This document shows, piece by piece, positions 5,208 through 21,735 of a DNA stretch of 64,000 nt (the stretch's first letter is position 1; the number at the start of each line of letters is the position of its first letter). The position numbers and the translations under genes are program-made. A model generated the notes under the pieces. It was not told the origin of the DNA. It did not search any database and worked only from the letters and a program-made list of their open reading frames with translations. Origin of the DNA: Myrmaecium sp. VS I D KN 1 (Eukaryota; Ascomycota; Dothideomycetes; Valsariales; Valsariaceae). The stretch covers positions 310,001-374,000 of the forward strand of contig JADQAV010000014.1 in NCBI GenBank assembly GCA_019775845.1, given 5' to 3'.

Positions 5208-8200
5208 ATGACGCACACCGAAGCAAGACCGCCGCAGAAGCGCGACGTCTCCATCATGGGGGTAAGACATGCTTTTTCCGCCAACTCCGTCTCTCTCGTG
5301 CAAGGATCTCTTAGATCCTCCAGCTGCCTCCACACCTTATCGATTCGAGCTGTTACCAGATCCGAACCTAGATCACATATGTATCCACCTCGCGGCATCG
5401 CCAGCCGAGATCAGGCCAGGAACATCGCTGATCAGTACCGCTACAGACCAACGACAGCAGTATCGTGTCGAAGAGCAGCGTCGCGAAGCTCTACTTCCCC
5501 GATGAGCCTGACTTCTATGGCGCCTTCATCCGGAAGCCCCAACGGCGGTCACCGCTAATCAACCGGGGCTACTGGTTGCGCATGGAGGCCATCGAGCGGA
5601 CCGTCTTGGATTTCCTGGAAGAACACGCTCACCAGGAAACCTTGGTGGTCAATCTGGGCTGTGGCTAGTGAGTAACATCACGTTGCATTTGTGTCTTGGC
5701 CGAAGATCCGCAAGGCTGTGAGCTGCAGCTTTCCATTATCAATGCGCTTATGAGACTATCTTGAAAGTTTGCTAATGCATGCTCCAGCGACCCTCTGCCT
5801 TTCCAAATATGGCACCGGCATCCGGAGCTTTGCGAGCGTACGACCTTTGTCGATGTCGACTACCCAGCGCTGATCGAGAAAAAGAAGGAAAGCATCCTGA
5901 GAACACCGTTGCTCAGAGAGTCCCTGAAGCAACCGGTCGAGGAGAACCCTAAATCCCCAGTCTTCCTTCAAGCCGGAGGCTACAAGGCTATCGGTTGCGA
6001 CTTACGTCAACTGGCCTTGTTGGAGGCCGCGCTCAAAGAACAGTGCGATATCCAGAATCGCCCCGTCATCTTCGTGGCCGAGGTCTCGGTGACCTACATG
6101 ACGCTGAAGTACGCAGACAAGCTGATCAAATGGTCGAGTTCATTCCCGAGCGCACGGTTCTGCCTGCTCGAGCAGTTCTTCCCCGACGGGCCTACTAATC
6201 CCTTCGCGCGGACGATGATGGCTCATTTCGACGGATTAGGGACCCACTTGCAGGGCATCAGCAAGTATCCGCGCCTCCAGGATCAGTATGTACGATTCAA
6301 GTTGGCCGGCTGGTCGAGTGTACGAGTGCGCAATATGTGGGAGTTGTGGGGCGACGACGAGTTCATTCCCGTAGAAAAACGAAAAGCCTTGGATCAGGTC
6401 GAACCGTTTGACGAGTGGGAAGAATTCGCTTTGTTCTCGGGACACTACTTCCTCCTGGTCGCGGATACATCGAAATCGAACTGCGCAAACGTCGACCCGC
6501 GACCTGAGCAACTCGAAAAGGAGGGGAACATACCCCTCGTCACAAACAGACACCTCGAAATAAAACCCATCGTCACCTCGGATGGAACGGCGATCGAGGT
6601 TCCTCCGGATGGTCGCCGCCGACACGGTGCAGCTTTCTTGCTCAGGAAAGACGTCGCAGCCTGTCATGGTGGGGTCAGCATGTATGGAAGCCGGACAAAT
6701 TCCATCGATGTTTTTTGTAAGAAAGGTGCAACCCCGAAACTTGAAGGACCCCAAGACGCAGAACCTAGGATGTGCCACACTATCACTCATCTGGGTGATG
6801 ACGAATGTTTAATGGTTGGAGGAAGAGCCGCTCCGAACCGAGCAATCGAGACATGTTATCACTTGAAGGCTGGCGTCTGGAATCGGGTGGATGGTTTGGC
6901 AGAGCCACGGTATAGGCATTGCGCCGTTCATGTTAAGATTACTCACGAAGGGGATACAATCCCTGCTGTCCTTGTGTTCGGCGGCAAGTCTTCTTCAGGA
7001 GAGATATTTAATGATTGGTGGCTATGGGACTCTGCACATGGATGGCGAGAGGTCAAGGCCGATGGAAGCAAGCCGGCACCACGGTTCGGCCATGCTATGA
7101 GCAACATCTCCAGCGCTTCAACGCAAGGCTTGGTGACTGGGGGTATCGGTGTGGATGGGAAGGTGCTCAGCGACATGTGGAGGTGGACGCTTCAGCACGA
7201 AGATGGGCTGCGAATATCTTGCGAGGAAATCTCGCACGATATAGACGATGGCCCCGAGTCTGCAGTTGCGAAGAAAAGCCTACCTCGATTCGGCGCAAGT
7301 ATGGTCACTACCAAATGGGGCGTGTTTCTTATAGGAGGAGTCGGAGACGACCGCGTACTCAACGCTGAAGAGGAGATCCTGCTCATCAGAGACCCTTCGC
7401 CCCTCAAGCTCGAGAGGCTTCTCTACGTGTCACCGCTGCCGCCGCGGATGATGTTGATCGGATTTGGCGCGGTGGCCCTGGATGATAGCGAAGTACTTCT
7501 CATGGGTGGTGGAGCGATATGCTTCTCCTTTGGCAGCTTTATCAACTCGGTCTACTTTTCCATCCGGGAGTACGAGCAAACCTCATCGGCAGGCCCGATC
7601 AACGGCACGATCGCCGACAGAACTCGTCCACATGTTGCGAAGGCCAAGCAGATCTTGGATCAAAGCTGGAGAACGTCGCACGACCAGTTGCCCACTCTGT
7701 CACAACCATCGGAGGAGCAAGGCCCGCCAATCACAAAGGTCCGGTCGGTCCGCGTCGAGTCTCCGGAAGACTTCGAGCAGATCGTCGCTGCCGGACAGCC
7801 CGTCATCATCACAGGAGCGGACATCGGGCCCTGCTCCCATCTCTGGTCAACCGACTACCTATGCGAAAAGATCGGCGGAGACCGCGAAGTCGTCGTGCAC
7901 GCCTCCACATCCGAGCGGATGACCTTCGCCCACAAAAACTTCACCTACGTCAAGCGGCGCTTCAGCGCCTTCCTCCACGCCATCACCGCCGCCGGCGAGC
8001 CCTCCTACCTCCGCGCCGTGTCCACCGACAAACCCCTCAAGCACCCCACCTCCCTGGCCCACGACTTCCCCACCATCGCCCCGGACTTCCGTCTCCCGCT
8101 CGCGCTCGCCGCCGTCATCGCACCCACGATGCACAGCTCCCCCCTGCGCATCGCCGGCCCCGTCCGCCTCTGGCTCCACTACGACGTCCTCGCCAACATC

Positions 8201-8749
8201 CTCTGCCAGGTCCGCGGCCGCAAGCGGCTCCGCCTGTTCCCGCCCGCGGATGTGAGCCGCCTCGCCTACGCGCCTGGCGCCTCGAGCTCGGATGTGGATG
8301 TCGAGGCGGGTGGGTGGGCGCTGCGAGGCACGCATCCGCATGATGCCGTCCTGAATCCGACAGATATCCTGTATATTCCGCCGCTGTGGTCGCATACGGC
8401 GCAGCCCCTTGGCGGGGACGGTAGCAGCGGTGACGACGGCGGTGATGGCAGCAGCAGCAGCAGCAGTAGCAGCAGCAGCAGCAGAAGCAAGGGTGTGAGC
8501 GTCGCGGTCAACGTCTTCTTCCGCAACCTGCCCGATCGCGCGTACGCGGCGGGCAAGGACGTGTATGGCAACCGCGATTTGGCGGCGTACGAGCTGGGGC
8601 GGCGGGAGGTGGAGCGCATCGTGAAGGGCTTTGGGGGGCTGCCGGCGGATGTTGCGCGGTTTTATCTTGAGAGGCTGGTGGGGGAGTTGAGGGGGAAGGT
8701 TGATGAGTTGGGTGGGGCTGAGGGTGGTGGGGAGGAGAGGGAGGGGTGA
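5208..8749 (+). CDS. TYW4: tRNA wybutosine-synthesizing protein 4 (methyltransferase-Kelch-JmjC)
   Basis: Three exons: 5208-5261, 5447-5667, 5788-8749; 1078 residues. Family role: SAM-dependent methylation and methoxycarbonylation of yW-72, last steps of wybutosine formation at position 37 of tRNA-Phe. The N-terminal leucine-carboxyl-methyltransferase-type domain shows SSIVSK, KPQRRSPLINRGYW and the SAM loop NLGCGYDPLPFQ. Kelch repeats follow (about 250-560, VFGGKSSSGEIFNDWW among them). The C-terminal JmjC/cupin domain keeps the iron ligands HYD (His889, Asp891) and WSH (His961). The first exon is needed because an in-frame stop lies just before 5447; its MTHTEARPPQKRDVSIMG ends in the usual MG-TN(D/N)SSIVSK junction. 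Odd: an 11-12-residue Ser run from an AGC/CAG microsatellite sits inside the cupin domain after His961. Confidence 0.93.
8448..8486 (+). repeat. AGC/CAG microsatellite inside TYW4
   Basis: An interrupted (GCA/AGC)n tract in the coding strand, read as serine. It is in frame, so length changes by whole units would keep the TYW4 frame open. Confidence 0.9.
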
Positions 8750-14221: not shown

Positions 14222-14830
14222 TCTGCGTTTGCTTTTTTTGCTCCTCACTTCGGTACTGTACACGGCGTGAAGATGCTAGCTGGGGCTGGCGGTGGGGGTG
14301 GGGGGTTCGGATTAGGCAATACATATGGCTCCTATTTGCTTTTTTCTTCTCGCTACTTCATCTCTTTGGAAGGAAAGATATTAAGTTTTGCCGGTTTGTT
14401 ATTCTCGTCTCCTCCTCACTCTTTCTTTCTTCGCAGTCTGCTTCGTAGTCTGTTTCTGCGGTGTGAAGGAGACGTGAGGAACAAGAGTAGGGAAGGATGA
14501 TAGGTAGGTAGGAAGGGGGTGAGAGGGGCGGGGATTCGACCGTGGGTGATGAACATGTAAGGTCTGCCTGCTTCTCCCCCCTCCACACGCCGTCTCGGAT
14601 GGATCATAGTATCGTGATAGCCAAGTATTCAGGCATTTAGGAAGTCATTCAGGCTGCCAGGCTCTGATATAGGCCCATGGGAGGCGATGGGAGACGATAC
14701 GAGGTGATTGATTCTCTTTCTTACAAGCACTCCTCTCTCTTTAGATACAATGTGTATTTAGGTATATACGCATATCCCACACCCTCGTCCCCTGCCTAAA
14801 TTCCGTTTAATTCATTCATTCCTTTCCCTT

Positions 14831-14938
14831 CCCTTCTCTTTTCCCTTCTCTTTTCCCTTCTCTTTTCCCTTCTCTTTTCCCTTCTCTTTTCCCTTCTCTT
14901 TTCCCTTCTCTTTTCCCTTCTCTTTTCCCTTCTCTTTT
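14831..14938. repeat. Minisatellite, nine perfect copies of a 12-bp unit
   Basis: Unit CCCTTCTCTTTT repeated nine times without a mismatch, flanked by partial units. The uniformity suggests recent expansion by slippage or unequal exchange. Confidence 0.95.
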
Positions 14939-15490
14939 CCCTTTCTCGTATGGAGTGTTGTTCGTTCGCTCACGTGTCATCTTATACTATTTTACCGCGG
15001 CTCGCCTCGTTGCTCCTCCTCACCTCGTCTTGCCCTATCGCTCCTCGACTTTTGGGCCCATTGTCCTGTATCATGCGTCTTGCGTCCTGCGTCCCTCGTT
15101 CCTCGTTCGTCACCCGCTGCTACTACTACTACTGCTACTGCTACTGGGATATCGTTCGGAGTTGATTGGATGCTGCTATATTTTACTGTACATACTATCC
15201 TATCCTTCTGCACTGTCCCCCCTTTGTTCTTTTGCTCTCGCGGACACGCCTCCGACACAACTTTCACACGCCTCCGACGCACCTGTCTGCATGTTTAGCT
15301 AGCTGGCTGCCTGCCTGCCTTGTTCGGCACGTTCCTTCGTTCCTCGCCCCCCTTCCTTCTTTCCCTCTTCCCTTCCTTCTATGCCGCGTTTCCTCTTTCT
15401 TTTCTTATCGTCCTCTTTCATACGGGCAGTAGGTACAGCCGTTCCGTAGTAGGCAACTTTTATAGTGAATTCATAACCAATATAAATACA

Positions 15491-18400
15491 TCACATCCCC
15501 ACCTCCCCCTCCCCCTCCCTCTCCCCCACATCCCCCACCCCAACCAGCCCCTCCACCAACCCCCCCAACCGCCCATCCACCCCCACCAACCCCCTCACCT
15601 CCGCCCTCCAATCGAACCCCTCCCTCCCCGCCGCAGCCCCACACACAGCCCCCAACCCCCTCATCAGCGCCCGCAACTCCGCCCTCAGCGCCTCCGCCGC
15701 CTGCCCCACCCACTCATCAACACCATCGCGAACGTGGCCCCACGCCACCGCCACCGCCGCAAGCACGTCCGCGCGCCATCGCGGCAGCCGCGGCCAGGCG
15801 GTCGCGCAGAGGGCGCGGAGGGCGCGGGCGGTGGCGCGGAAGAGGTCCGGCGCCGCGGTAGGAAGCAAGGGGTCGGAGAGCGCGGCGGTGAGGGGGGGGA
15901 GGAGGGAGGGGAGGAGCGGGATGCTGGCGAGGCGGAGGGCGTGCAGGTAGGTTGTGAGCGTGTGGAGGAGGGTGGTGGGGAAGGCGGGGGGCAGGTGCGG
16001 AAGCGCGCGCGGATGGAGGTGGGGGAGAAGGTGGGTGTGGAGCGTGTGGGTGAGGGTGTGGACGAGGGCGGTGGGGGGGAGGTTGAGGCGGGGTTGTGGG
16101 GATGGAGGGGAGGGGGTGGGCCAGCGTTTGGTGGCGAGGGTGAGGAGGGCGGAGTAGGCGGCGTTGAGGAGGGGGAGGGCGGTGGGGAGAGGGGTGGAGG
16201 GGGGGGTGTAGGTGAGGGCGGGCTCGAGGGCGTCGTGGAAGATGGGGCCGAGGCCGGTGCGGTGGAGGAGCGCGGGTGGGGTGGCGTGGAGGAGCAGGTG
16301 GAGCAGTTCGATGCCGGTGGTCTTGGTGGCGAGGTCGATGTCGTCGGTGATGGTGAGGATGGGCGGGACGAGCAGGGGCCAGTGTCGCTCGAGGGCGTCC
16401 TCGTTTAGGCCGGAGGTCAGGCACCAGCGCAGGAGGTCAAGGGCGTAGGCGTTTTGAGGGAGCTTCCACGGTTTGAGTTTGCGTTCGGCTTCTGCTTCGT
16501 CGTCGTTGTCGTGTGCTATCTCTGCTATGTCCCGGAACCGTGGCCCGGCCGCGTCATCATCCCTCGTGCTCCTCCTCCGTCCGGCTGCCGTCACGGCGTG
16601 CTTACGGGCGGCCGCGGCCTGCGTGGCGGAGAAGAGGGGGCGGATGGTAAGCGAGAGGAAGTGGGTGGCGAGGTGGACGGGGAGCTCACTGTTCTGCTTG
16701 TCCTTGACCGCCTCGATGGCGGCGGCCGGGTCCGTCGCGTCCGGGTGCCGGAGCTGCCAGGCCATGACCACGTCCAGGGCGTCCTTCATCCAGGGGCCCG
16801 GGTTGGTGGAAAGTGCCTTGGCGAGCGTCTTGCCGTCGAGCAGCGGTTTGAGCGTGTAGGCCTCGAGGACGTCGACGTCGCGGAGATGCGTGAGGAAGAC
16901 GGTATAGTCTTGGATGATGCCTGGGAAGTATTAGATGTGGACGTTAAAGATGTTCAGAAGGGTTCTCGTACCATCTTCGGCATCTGGAGAGTTGGATGTC
17001 TCGTAGAGTAGCGAGCAAAGGACCTGCGTCCGCCAGGTTGGGCCCCAGCGACGAATGGCCATTCCTAGGACATCCCTCGCTGTGGCATCCTCTCCTTCCG
17101 GCATCTTTGCCGGGTTGCGCTTCTGAGCTATGAACTTGTCTTTCAAGGCTCGGATTTCCTCTATGTGCCGCATCGAGTCGGTGACGACAGTGCAAACCTT
17201 GTTGGGTGCCTTGATGCCTTCTCGAACGACCGCATGAGCGGCATAGATGGGCTTGCCCTTCTTGGGCTCGATCATGGGAGCGTCAACCCATGGGATCACC
17301 GATGCCGCGATCCAACCAAGATATCTCTCCTCATCGTCGCGGAAGAGAATCCCTTTGGCCGGGCTGCTCTGCGAGGAAAGCAGCTTCGATACGCAGTCGT
17401 ACGCTCGCTTGAACAGCTGCGTCTCGGGCTTGGACTTCATTTCGTTGGTCGGATCGGTGAAGATGGTGTCGTAAAGTCCGAGGCGGTTAATGATATCCAA
17501 CGCGCCATATGGATCAGGGCCTGATTTGCGTCAGTTACTTCTTTGCTAGCCTCTCTGATGTGACTCACCTCGCAGCATCTTTTCGACCTCGATACCTACT
17601 CTCTCGCGGCTGATCTTCAGCCGCAGCGCTCCCTTGATATCCGGGTTGCCCATGGATTCTTCAGCGCTGGGGTCAATCTTGTAGCCAAGTCGACTGGCAA
17701 ACCGGATCAACCTCAGCACACGCAGGGGGTCATCCTTAAAGGTTTGGTATGGCTCAAGGGGAGTACGGATGATCTTCAACTCCATGTCTTGGAAGCCACG
17801 CCCGGTGAAGTCCTCCACAATCGACTTGTTCAGATTGTAGAACAGAGCATTGACGGTAGCATCCCGGCGCAGCGCATCCTCTTCCGGGGTGCCGAATTCC
17901 ATCTGGGGGTTCCGGCTATCTTCGGAGTAGGTCTCCTTGCGAAGGTTGACCAGGTCGATGTCCAAGCCAAGGATTTTCGTGGTCACGGTCTCGAGATGTT
18001 TGGATTTCTCCGGGTTCGCCTCGATCTTATACAAGCCTGCGCCCATCTTCCGCTTGCCGTCACCCTTGCCATCCTTACTCTCGAGGCCGTACTTCTCTGC
18101 GTTTCCGGGAATTTCCAGGTACTCTTTCATCTTCAGGCCGAACTGGTAGCCGGTCATCTTGTTGATGGCCACGTCGATGTCATGGCTTGGCGTGCCGAGC
18201 AGCTTGTCTCGTACCCAACCTCCGGTGAAACGAAGCTCTAGTGGGGACTTTGCCAGTTCGTCTGGTACGGAGGTGGTGGATTCCAGCTCCGCCGACAGTG
18301 GGTTGCTGTCGATGTACTCTCCAACGTCCAGCAGCAACTGACGGAGCTTGCCCTCGACCTCGGTGAGCTCGATGGTCTTGGTGGTGGCCATCGTGGACGG

Positions 18401-18640
18401 TGTAGAAGAGTGGAAATGTGAAGAAGATGAAGGAGGATGAGGAAATGAAGGAGATACCCTACGCCGTTTGGGACTAGGGACGGTTTGCGCTGGGCTTGGT
18501 GAGCGCCGCAGTGACATGTACGAACCAATAGCGGTCGATGAGAGTCTCGCGGATGCGACTAGGAGGACAGACTGACGAGGAAGACGTCTAGGGAAAGTCG
18601 AGGATGCAAGGAAAACTCGTGTGAGTGCGCTCACGGTCAT
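15491..18640 (-). CDS. CCA1: CCA-adding tRNA nucleotidyltransferase fused in frame to Tti2
   Basis: Three exons: 18640-17569, 17520-16972, 16920-15491; introns 48 and 51 nt; 1016 residues. Residues 1-616 are a class II CCA-adding enzyme: a mitochondrial-type leader rich in Arg/Ser, internal starts at Met42 and Met84 (suggesting dual targeting, as known for yeast Cca1), motif A GGWVRDK (140-146) with DID (154-156), RRDATVNALFYNL, LRLIRFASRLGY, and the fungal end KPGPW-type motif NPGPWMKDALDVVMAWQLRHPD. Without a stop the frame continues at about residue 620 into a Tti2-like alpha-solenoid (LTIRPLFS; LVPPILTITDDIDLATKTTGIELLHLLL in part), partner of Tel2-Tti1 in maturing PI3K-like kinases. The Tti2 part has no Met until near its end. 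A 71-nt intron candidate at 16689-16619 would end the protein after CCA1 (622 residues). Confidence 0.88.
16619..16689 (-). other. Candidate retained/alternative intron at the CCA1-Tti2 junction
   Basis: Reading on the minus strand: donor A|GTGAGC, a CTTAC branch-like motif about 30 nt before the end, a pyrimidine tract (CCCCCTCTTCTCC) and a CAG acceptor. The 71-nt length is not a multiple of three. Removal joins the CCA1 frame to a TAA at 16604-16602 after S-R-G-R-P. Retention keeps the frame open through LTIRPLFS into Tti2. Both outcomes are read directly from the sequence; which occurs in the cell is not known. Confidence 0.55.
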
Positions 18641-19190
18641 CCATGCAGATATCTATGATTGTGCCCGCACTGAATGATAGAAGCCAGCCGAGCTCGTGGC
18701 GCCGATATTACTGGATAGCTGAATGTCACAGGCAGCTGGAGGATGCTGAAGAGAATGTCGATGCGCTTCCTCTCCACAACGTCTTGGGATCGGCGGTGTT
18801 TGCTCTTCCTCTGTTTTGCTCTACGTTGCGTTGTTGAATGATGGATGGATGATGGTATTGAATTGGCGGAAGCTGAATGGAAATCTCCGACGTCCATGTC
18901 CGACCGTTGAGGTGAAGTGCTCCGCATCAATTGCTCTCCGGACCCTTGCTGGCTTTTTCCGGAGCGGCCACCGCAGTTCCCTCGACGTTCGTATACTTCG
19001 TACGGCGTGCCGACGACCGAATACTTACCTTATAACATCCTCGACCACCCTCCTCCCTGCGCCCTGCACACGAGCCCGTCTGCCACCGGAACGGCATCCT
19101 CTCGACCTCCTCACCTCCTCCCATCCCATGAACCGTCCTGCGACCGTCCTGCGCTCCTCGTACACCGCCCACGGGCCCTAGAAGGCCTCC
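18641..19190. promoter_or_regulatory. Divergent promoter region CCA1-TTI2/TRS85
   Basis: 550 bp between the two start codons. An in-frame TAG just before 19191 fixes the TRS85 start. No clear TATA or upstream frame with coding content. Confidence 0.5.
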
Positions 19191-21735
19191 ATGACGACGC
19201 CTTCACAGGATGGCTTCAGCTCCCCCAAGTACCCAGACACCGGCTCGCCGATAATCTTGCCAAAGCGACGGCCGTTTTCGCCCACCGGATCGCTCGCGTC
19301 GCTGCCCTTCCGTCGATCGAATTCCTCCCTCACCTCCCTTTTCGCATCCACATCCTCCCTCCCCCCGCTAGGTGGCACTTCCGGCTCCGCCACCCCCCCG
19401 GCCAGTACAACCCCAACAAACACCTTCTCTCCCGGTGTCCGCTCGAGCGGCTCCTCCCCGGGCAATGCGCCTCACGCTCTTCGATCAAACGAGGCGATCA
19501 GCCTGATCTTGCGCTCGTTCGTGCCCCATGTCGCCGTGTTCGCATCCGCCGACACGGAGGAGCTGGTGCGCCAAAAGGGTTTCTCGGGAGGGCTGTTGGA
19601 GCTGCTCAGGCCGTTCGGAGAACACGTTCCGGGCAAGGTCACGATCCGCGACAGCGTGGGGGCGAGTAGGAGCTGGGAAGATTTCGGCGTGCGCTTCACC
19701 GGGTTGATGGATGGGCTGGGCCTCCCGGCGTACCGGACGAGCATAGACCGGACGGATCCATCCGGCGCGCGCCTATCGAGCGCTTCCTTCTCACGTACGG
19801 GCGGAGATGTTGCGCAAATAGAAGAGGTGGTGGATCGTCACTTGGCTCATGCCGAATACCAGTCCCCTGGACTGCCGGATTACTTTACTTCCAGCGCTGA
19901 GGCTCCAGAGCCCAGCACTACCACCTCACCGTTTTACATGCTATATCTAAGAAGACTGCTGTCCGGTCTTCCTATGACGCCTCACGAAACCTTCGCCCAC
20001 CCGACAGCGTGCGTCATCGCCATTAGCTCGAAAGCCCCGGCGGCTATAGAAGAACTACGACGACTGTACAACAGCACAAACTCCGGCGACCATCGACTAC
20101 CGCAATGGGTGAACAATGAATATCTACGATACTACGTCCTCGTACACGACGAAGACCACGATGACATTCAAAAATCAACAGCGCTCTTTGAACAGATGAA
20201 GCGGCATTTCGGGCTGCATTGCCATCTGCTCCGCATCCGCAGCGATCGGTGCGTCTCTTCAGACGAGGACAGTGTCCGACTACCCGTGTGCGAGTGGATG
20301 TCGGCAGCGGAAGAGCTGGCCGAGATCCAAAAACGAGGTGAGTTCCGCGCCGGCACAGCCCCCCACCGCGCGCTTCCTAACCGCCCCAGAAACCGCGGAC
20401 GACCTCGACGACCCCACCCCCTACCTCTTCGACTCCGACGTCACCGCCATCCGGACCTTCGTCCGCGAACTGGTCACCCAGTCCATCATCCCGGTCATGG
20501 AGCGCGTCTCCGCGCAATGGAACGAGCAGATCCTTTCGCGACGGCGCGGCCTCAGCGGGCGCCTCATGTCGATCTCCAAGCGATGGACGCCCTTCGGGGG
20601 CTCGAACCGGAACTCTTCCCCCGCGAGCACGGGCGGGGGCACGCACGGCAACTACGACTCCCTGCAAGGGTTCTACCGGCCGGACGCGCCGGAGGCGATC
20701 ATGCGCAAGCTGGCCGACTACGCCGTCATGCTGCGCGACTTCAAGCTCGCGCACGCGACGTACGACCTGCTCCGCACCGACTTCGCCAACGACAAGGCCT
20801 GGCGCTACTACGCCGGCGCCCACGAGATGACCGCCCTCACCTCGCTCCTCCTGTCGACGCAGGCGCTCGGCAACAGCGGCGGAAGCGGAAGCGGCGGTAG
20901 TCGTTCCGCCCGTGCCATCCTCGGCGTCGCTGATAACGTCGACACCCTCCTCGAGACGGCCTCGTACTCCTACGTGACCCGCTGTGCGGCGCCGTACAGC
21001 GCGCTGCGCTGCCTGGCCTTGGGGTTCGAGCTGCTGCACGCGCGGGGCGGCGCGGCCGCCGACGAGGCCGCCCGCTGGGCATCCCGGATCCTGGAGTCGC
21101 AGACGCCCGCCCTGGTGGGGCCGGTCGGGCGCACGCTCTTCGTCGAGCGGGTCGGGGCGTGCTACGCGGCGAAGCGGGGGTGGGGCGGCTTGCGGTGGGG
21201 CGCCCGCCGGCGGAAGGCGGGGCTGTGGTGCTTTTTGGCGGCGGATGGGTGGGTAAGGTTGGGACGGGGGGTCCAGGCGGAACGCGCGTTGCGGGAGGCG
21301 TGTCGGTTGTATCGGGTGGATTTGGATGCGTTGGGAGGTGGGGAGCTGAGGAAGGGGGGGAAAGAGCAGGGACTGGGTTTTGAGGGTATGCTGGATGATC
21401 TGGAGGCTTTGCGCGAGGCGATCAGGGATCTGCGGCTGGATGCTATGGGGCTGTATGATGCGGATGCGGATGAGGAGCGCGATTTGTCTGGCGACCAGGG
21501 CGGGGGTGAGCCTGAGGTGGAACAGGAGGTTGAGGTTAGCAATGAGTTGCTGGATGGCGCGACCAGCAGCTCCAGCGCGGCGCGCAAGCATCGGCTCAGT
21601 CTGATCGGGGCGGTGGCGCCGGGGATGGTGCCGATGGTGGATCCGCTTGGTGCCGCGGGTGAGCAGGAGCCCCCGACGCCGATGAGGACGCTGAGGGATG
21701 ATAAGGGGGAGAAGTTGAGGGGGGTGGCGGAGTGA
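19191..21735 (+). CDS. TRS85: TRAPPIII complex subunit Trs85 (TRAPPC8 family)
   Basis: Two exons, 19191-20337 and 20390-21735, around a 52-nt intron; 830 residues. Trs85 is the TRAPPIII-specific subunit that directs the Ypt1/Rab1 exchange factor to autophagic and endosomal membranes (family knowledge). After a Ser/Pro-rich leader the conserved part runs from SLILRSFVPHVAVFAS through FYMLYLRRLLSGLPMTPHETFAHPTACVIAI, WVNNEYLRYYVLVHDEDH, and across the junction to FVRELVTQSIIPVMERVSAQWNE and the ILSRRRGLSGRLMSISKRW-type motif, then a helical repeat region (YAVMLRDFKLAHATYDLLRTDF). The C-terminal 100 residues are acidic and poorly conserved. The long minus-strand frame across exon 2 is a shadow of GC-rich codons. 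Confidence 0.9.

Follow-up and report, generated by a model that had tools for sequence, protein, structure and literature searches.

A CCA-adding enzyme and a shortened Tti2 joined in one gene of Myrmaecium and many other fungi, with a probable exitron at the joint

The window analyzed here is a 64,000-nucleotide stretch of the genome of Myrmaecium sp. VS I D KN 1 (positions 310,001 to 374,000 of contig JADQAV010000014.1, assembly GCA_019775845.1). On its minus strand lies a single gene in which CCA1, the tRNA nucleotidyltransferase that adds the 3'-terminal CCA, is followed in the same frame by Tti2, a subunit of the Tel2-Tti1-Tti2 (TTT) co-chaperone. The parts of this gene are as follows.

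15491..18640, minus strand: fused gene CCA1-Tti2, 1016 amino acids with both introns removed; start codon ATG at 18640-18638, stop codon TGA at 15493-15491
17569..18640, minus strand: exon 1, N-terminal part of CCA1, with in-frame Met codons at 18640, 18517 and 18391
17521..17568, minus strand: intron 1, 48 nucleotides, GTGAGT...CTGAC...CAG
16972..17520, minus strand: exon 2, CCA1
16921..16971, minus strand: intron 2, 51 nucleotides, GTACGA...CTAAT...CAG
15491..16920, minus strand: exon 3, the end of CCA1, the whole Tti2 part and the stop codon
16690..18640, minus strand: CCA1 (class II, e-type tRNA nucleotidyltransferase), residues 1-617, with two introns; assigned from motifs, Pfam and the PDB profile matches of fused relatives
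15494..16690, minus strand: Tti2 part, residues 618-1016, without the N-terminal region of standalone Tti2
16763..16789, minus strand: last in-frame Met codons upstream of the Tti2 part, Met585 (16789) and Met593 (16765), possible internal starts

Both introns carry signals typical of fungi, and the spliced translation is one product of 1016 residues and 111.9 kDa. A first-pass annotation had described a CCA1 frame that continues into Tti2 without a stop, and the three-exon frame can indeed be read through both domains at the coordinates it gave, on the minus strand, which it had not stated. It had placed the end of CCA1 at about residue 601; the joint is nearby but slightly later, at residues 617/618 (KDKQN followed by SELPVHLATHFLSLTIRPLF). 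In-frame Met residues around and after the joint are found at 585 and 593 and then only at 960 and 1016, in agreement with its statement that none lies between Met593 and the far C-terminal end. With the N-terminal part of standalone Tti2 gone, the Tti2 part is left without its own start codon. Six-frame searches of the 25.66 Mb assembly, in which the best candidates were scored, found no second copy of the CCA1 or Tti2 family. At the other end of the gene, exon 1 may hold a mitochondrial presequence. An intron-like stretch of 47 nucleotides (GTGAGC...CCCTAG, 18634-18588, minus strand) lies inside the first 18 codons; its splicing would break the frame from Met1, leaving Met42 or Met84 as possible starts, and might thereby select whether a mitochondrial or another form of CCA1 is made.

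Pfam matched PolyA_pol in the fused product at 80.3 bits (cut-off 23), with PolyA_pol_RNAbd (21 bits, cut-off 22) and tRNA_NucTran2_2 (14.8 bits, cut-off 27) both below threshold. The catalytic motifs GGWVRD..DIDVAI, RRDATVNA, DPLRVLRLIRF and ISRERVGIE, which we take to be A, B, C and E in the class II naming, are intact, and the flexible loop reads YSEDSRNP. This loop fits the fungal consensus for CCA-adding enzymes, Yxxx(x)SRxP, as given in an excerpt of PMC7014341. A profile of 54 fused relatives, with the window excluded, matched the PDB entries 9ns2 (cca1, 6.5e-113) and 9ns4 (cca2, 8.5e-111), and this match to CCA enzymes stops at profile positions 541-545, just ahead of the joint. When exon 3 of the window was searched alone as a single sequence, only CCA enzymes were matched in the PDB (2 sequences, 9ns4 at 7.9e-09); 9ns2 and 9ns4 are presumably the S. 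pombe enzymes. A predicted structure of the fused relative P0010 (relatives are given by such P numbers) had a mean predicted local distance difference test score (pLDDT) of 86.7 and a predicted template modelling score (pTM) of 0.73, and its CCA1 half resembles the Arabidopsis CCA-adding enzyme (template modelling score 0.74, by target). In motifs, loop and the whole-enzyme match of its fused relatives, the gene is like the fungal class II, e-type CCA-adding enzymes, and judged by its sequence the CCA1 half is a complete CCA-adding enzyme. It differs from the known enzymes, whose match ends at about the joint, in the extra C-terminal Tti2 solenoid.

The second half matched the Tti2 family (PF10521) at residues 611-892 with 164.8 bits (cut-off 25.2), covering positions 30-276 of the 279-position profile. 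The model of exon 3 (mean pLDDT 89.1, pTM 0.85) predicts a solenoid of the HEAT/ARM type for this half, with the first Tti2 helix at 83-112 of the model (block pLDDT 96, 96 and 82). In the P0010 model, confidence is high for the first Tti2 helix (558-579) and low for a stretch downstream of it (591-610, block pLDDT 66-67). Foldseek and VIA-align searches with the Tti2 half returned many HEAT/ARM solenoids and other proteins, with TTI2 absent from the 50 rows listed by each. The fusion shares the profile match and the HEAT-like solenoid with Tti2/TTI2 of the TTT co-chaperone but differs from the standalone protein at its start. In standalone Tti2, an N-terminal region precedes the motif (I/V)(R/K)PLFxK, and in the fusions the CCA1 end occupies that place. 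The profile of standalone Tti2 aligns to human TTI2 (structures 7f4u and 7ole) from residue 217 and the fusion profile from residue 216; counting back, we estimate that fused Tti2 would start at about human residue 150-180. Residues 1-193 of human TTI2 co-purify TTI1 and residues 194-508 did not, although the latter were mostly insoluble, according to an excerpt of PMC8278493. Since the TTI1-binding part of the human protein is N-terminal and the fusion is without that region, fused Tti2 lacks the known TTI1-binding part, with about the first third of the protein replaced by CCA1. No match to the missing region was found elsewhere in the genome with the Pleopsidium N-terminal region as query (best E value 0.39), which is a weak negative as this region diverges fast. 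Tel2 (PF10193 at C2:350993, E value 5.4e-36) and Tti1 (PF24181 at C10:451246, E value 2.2e-30) are present in the same genome.

The fusion is not confined to this genome. The two larger surveys each cover the best 120 rows. A search with the Tti2 half gave 17 proteins, 16 of which carry both domains in the Pfam column of the database, and with a fused relative as query both domains were present in 110 of the best 120 of 2130 matches, the query included, nine being without Tti2 and one without the CCA1 head. In a length-limited search that excluded whole fusions, 100 of 120 listed rows still had CCA1-type sequence followed by Tti2 (95 by pattern and 5 by eye), 18 were standalone Tti2 and 2 were uninformative fragments. 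Most of the named fused genera presumably belong to the Dothideomycetes, and fused proteins beyond that class among the matches listed came from Xylona (Xylonomycetes), Sarea (Sareomycetes), Pycnora (Candelariomycetes) and, once, Chrysothrix (Arthoniomycetes). Standalone Tti2 was listed for, among others, Pleopsidium (Lecanoromycetes), Cirrosporium (Xylobotryomycetes), Geoglossum types and Letharia, and no Eurotiomycetes, Sordariomycetes or Leotiomycetes were recognized by name among the best 120 rows of either listing. An unrooted tree was built for the Tti2 part from 41 sequences, 4 of the 45 first chosen having been dropped for want of the start motif. In it the window has a long branch and the standalone forms cluster with the Sarea, Xylona and Pycnora fusions, which is compatible with one or several origins of the fusion. 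Proteins of this kind already carry annotations of both domains in databases (for example P0055). A stop hidden by a sequencing error, which had been named as one way in which the fusion could be spurious, was rejected and is excluded in practice: the same domain order recurs across many other genomes, in more than 100 database proteins. The comparison of both halves with the proteins of relatives, proposed together with the original observation, confirms from sequence that the fusion is real, widespread and more general than one genome.

What the first-pass annotation overlooked is a good candidate intron within the open frame, exactly at the joint. An intron that is itself protein coding is called an exitron, and the candidate and its predicted product have the following positions.

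16619..16689, minus strand: candidate exitron, 71 nucleotides, with donor A/GTGAGC (16689), branch-like CTTAC (16651-16647), a pyrimidine-rich tract and a CAG acceptor ending at 16619
16602..16618, minus strand: tail of the predicted spliced form, S-R-G-R-P-stop, with TAA at 16604-16602

The CAG ending at 16619 is the first good acceptor downstream of the donor at 16689. With the segment removed, the product would read ...KDKQN-SRGRP-stop, so that CCA1 ends five codons on; with the segment kept, it encodes most of the first Tti2 helix. The intron-like pattern, whose thresholds were chosen after the site had been seen, occurs twice in the 25,941 nucleotides of long open reading frame sense sequence of the window, both times in the fused gene. 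Synonymous recoding of the joint peptide creates GTGAG in 5.6% of cases and the complete pattern in 4.1%, figures that taken alone are weak evidence for an exitron. In this species, the 71-nucleotide segment is probably an exitron.

Stronger indications come from the relatives, whose joint is known from protein residues, codons having been read in the window only; scans of viral contigs for DNA across the joint turned up no relative. Anchoring succeeded for 205 of the 216 fused rows, namely the window and 204 database clusters, and these are related rows rather than independent ones. The triplet at the joint was GEL in 180, SEL in 18, and GEP, CEL, REL, SDL, TES, ASL and TEL in one each. The joint residue was accordingly Gly, Ser, Cys or Arg in 202 of the 205 rows, with Glu next in 201 of those 202. 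All four residues can be encoded by NGT, which together with a following GAG gives NGTGAG, and the window itself reads AGT GAG CTC, producing the GTGAG 5' splice site. The length from the last conserved CCA1 motif to the triplet takes 23 different values with the frame always kept, and the triplet is therefore no part of CCA1; it is also absent from standalone Tti2. Left out of the count were four rows that could not be anchored (P0060, P0078, P0100 and P0233) and seven in which the CCA1-tail pattern was unmet (P0061, P0077, P0125, P0138, P0193, P0221 and P0222), of which P0125, P0138, P0193, P0221, P0222, P0060 and P0233 show GEL. The two models of Dothideomycetes sp. NU459 (P0060 and P0078, t1 and t2) and the Elsinoe protein P0100 have the Tti2 start cut differently at or near the same donor, perhaps reflecting conflicting splice evidence there.

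The triplet could also be explained without any splicing, if every CCA1 carried Tti2 and GTGAG were a by-product of a helix that starts with Gly or Ser, Glu and Leu, the CCA1-only models then being prediction errors or rare mis-splicing. Such a constitutive fusion is in keeping with a fused frame that turns up across the listed relatives, with the predominance of fused models among them and with the poor branch site in the window. However, Cys and Arg, which are poor helix caps, occur at the joint and are codable by NGT, while the common helix caps Asp and Asn are absent from the 205 anchored rows, and two open reading frames of different species that look like cDNA are without exactly this segment. 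We consider a constitutive fusion unlikely.

These two open reading frames belong to the CCA1 relatives without Tti2. Among the nine such proteins in the best 120, P0089, P0112, P0115 and P0116 run into intron 2, and P0118 is partial and ends at the joint. The other four, P0097, P0102, P0120 and P0092, diverge at the joint with the tails GQTG, GQPI, GQSSNGH and GSPRPSCKR; in all four, PolyA_pol_RNAbd is above its cut-off (26.6-28.9) and tRNA_NucTran2_2 is below. The tails correspond to the segment directly behind RPLF(x)K at the joint, read out of frame, as seen when they were placed on 182 fused relatives (61,737 positions) with shuffled tails as control. The P0120 tail fitted 2 of the 61,737 positions, both directly behind RPLF(I/T)K, and 60 shuffles gave a mean of 0.05 matches after K/Q/E. 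The P0097 tail had 37 fits, 26 of them after K/Q/E (mean of 5 shuffles, 5.6), and lies behind RPLF(A/V)K in five out of five close fused relatives tested. The P0102 tail fits the joint in the Dothistroma protein P0035, a 90% identical relative, and the P0092 tail, once its Gly is left off, has a single match in 183 fused rows, which is in another frame and immediately behind LTIRPLF of the congener P0030. A Zymoseptoria model, P0061, aligned to P0053, likewise resumes right behind the same Lys.

Proteins from the lgn, ena and jgi sources behave as unspliced open reading frames. Intron 2 is translated in frame in 21 of the 23 environmental open reading frames in which it could be measured (56-59 versus 40 residues; 10 more were unmeasurable), and it is cleanly removed in only two, P0102 and P0120, both of which are also without the exitron. 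Lacking intron 2, these two look like cDNA, and the simplest reading of their contigs is that they are cDNA of a spliced, CCA1-only mRNA. The Tti2 helix inside the segment is conserved as protein. Taken together, splicing at the joint is strongly indicated in the relatives.

The same two rows raise the converse possibility that the joint intron is constitutive and the locus holds two genes, CCA1 ending just after the joint and Tti2 being made from a separate transcript, starting at Met585 or Met593 or in an unseen upstream exon, with the fusion models as annotation artefacts. Both cDNA-like rows are spliced (2/2) and none retains the segment, and both Met residues are kept in the alignment of 54 sequences (M525 invariant and M533 in at least 90%, P0010 numbering). 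A separate upstream exon would not require the helix in the segment to be conserved as protein, stop-free and in the CCA1 frame over 23 linker lengths, as it is; moreover, the N-terminal part of standalone Tti2 is absent here, although the search for it elsewhere is weak. We regard two separate genes as distinctly unlikely.

Several observations weigh against alternative splicing at the joint, or at least against reading it with full confidence. In the window, the branch-like CTTAC deviates from the fungal branch-site consensus CTRAY, whereas the introns of the gene itself have CTGAC and CTAAT, and splicing in this species is read from the genomic sequence only. Three of the 205 anchored rows (P0098, P0173 and P0202) have no NGT-codable joint residue; P0173 has Gly-Glu a few residues upstream of the joint. 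In P0046 and P0055, the best full-length relatives of P0120, its tail finds no fit, and the P0097 tail has a second fitting place in P0038. The P0102 tail had 9 fits, of which 3 follow K/Q/E where 5 shuffles average 4.0, and this is not significant alone; P0035 offers it a second fitting place besides the joint, and in P0004 it can be placed only away from the joint. The short tails of P0102 and P0097 are each weak taken singly. P0092 needs a slightly different acceptor, just before the joint point, and is not fully reconciled, and P0097, like P0092, is an annotation model for which RNA support may be missing. The retained form is seen in neither of the two cDNA-like rows, so that translation of the fusion is argued from conserved coding and annotation.

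Having weighed these points, we think it probable that this is a real, old fusion with an exitron at its joint, through which one gene gives both CCA1 alone and CCA1-Tti2. The part of this that the data establish is that CCA1 and an N-terminally shortened Tti2 stand in one frame over 23 linker lengths. In the relatives, the intron-like segment holding most of the first Tti2 helix would be spliced out, shifting the frame to a stop after 3-8 extra codons and leaving a complete CCA-adding enzyme. In this species, retention of 16689-16619 would give the fusion of about 112 kDa and its removal a CCA1 of about 69 kDa, and splicing would set the ratio of the two. The fusion would be the only source of Tti2 in the cell, acting with Tel2 and Tti1 as a co-chaperone in the maturation of kinases of the TOR/ATM family, while the CCA1-only form would do most of the tRNA 3'-end work, also inside mitochondria provided that its translation begins at the first Met. 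The earlier view that the Tti2 part appears translatable only as an extension of CCA1 then stands, unless Tti2 starts at an internal CCA1 Met; the same does not apply to CCA1, which is seemingly made alone in relatives.

The arrangement has parallels in known systems. Like other exitrons, the candidate has intron signals within an open coding exon, and both its spliced and retained forms are protein coding; unlike them, it lies where two genes have been joined, and its splicing would determine whether a single enzyme or a protein with two functions is made. In the animal GARS-AIRS-GART locus, a multifunctional gene also yields its first enzyme alone through alternative RNA processing, but there this occurs by intronic polyadenylation and within one pathway, whereas here an exitron and two unrelated pathways would be involved.

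The loss of the human TTI1-binding region weakens the inference that fused Tti2 still joins the TTT complex. Fused Tti2 might instead have left its TTT role and now serve CCA1, an RNA- or import-binding solenoid being one possibility. The missing region being the part that binds TTI1 in humans, as excerpted from PMC8278493, is in line with this, and in the P0010 model the low-confidence stretch follows the confident first Tti2 helix, so that this helix may belong with CCA1. Yet no other Tti2 was found in a genome that has Tel2 and Tti1, and Tti2 is essential in S. cerevisiae according to an excerpt of PMC4889661. Such a change of function seems to us very unlikely.

A further extension of the exitron model is that the switch is regulated and ties the supply of phosphatidylinositol 3-kinase-related kinases to tRNA maturation. 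Splicing, perhaps under TOR or stress, would set the share of CCA1 that carries the co-chaperone for Tor, Tel1/ATM, Mec1/ATR and Tra1, and the CCA1 half might anchor TTT at sites rich in tRNA or stand in for the TTI1-binding part that Tti2 has lost. This is a rather unlikely extension on present evidence. The first-pass annotation had similarly suggested a link from tRNA status to Tor-kinase supply, a hypothesis that the conserved fusion and published links between tRNA and TORC1 make more testable. In the excerpt of a review, tRNA inhibits TORC1 in vitro and overexpressed tRNA precursors prevent the down-regulation of TORC1 in S. pombe (PMC7563549), and CCA addition becomes limiting once Pol III escapes Maf1 repression (excerpt of PMC5390780). 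With these links a functional rationale for the fusion becomes conceivable, but they show nothing about the fusion itself.

Elsewhere in the window, the divergent neighbour of the fused gene is Trs85 (TRAPPC, PF12739; 19182-21735, plus strand), whose match is split over two overlapping frames, 19182-20897 and 20200-21732, so that an intron or a change of frame must lie in the region of about 20330-20420. Downstream of the 3' end of the fused gene lies a perfect 12-bp tandem array of TTCCCTTCTCTT (14829-14943, 9.6 copies, 100% matches). One long frame at 5765-8746 (plus strand) with leucine carboxyl methyltransferase, Kelch and cupin-like/JmjC domains is probably another tRNA-related multidomain protein, presumably a wybutosine enzyme of the TYW4 type.

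In conclusion, two housekeeping proteins of unrelated pathways have been welded into one gene across several fungal classes. Among the matches listed in our literature search, judged by title and abstract opening, no paper described a CCA1-Tti2 fusion or an exitron in such a gene. The new element here is the probable exitron at the joint, which is the most interesting part of the finding and the least certain for this species. The loss of the region that binds TTI1 in humans calls the present view of the TTT complex into question, and a splice site in the seam that is seemingly conserved in the DNA would show how the fusion is tolerated, the enzyme keeping a free form. The fusion is also a natural "Rosetta stone" link from tRNA maturation to TOR, between which functional links have already been published in yeasts.

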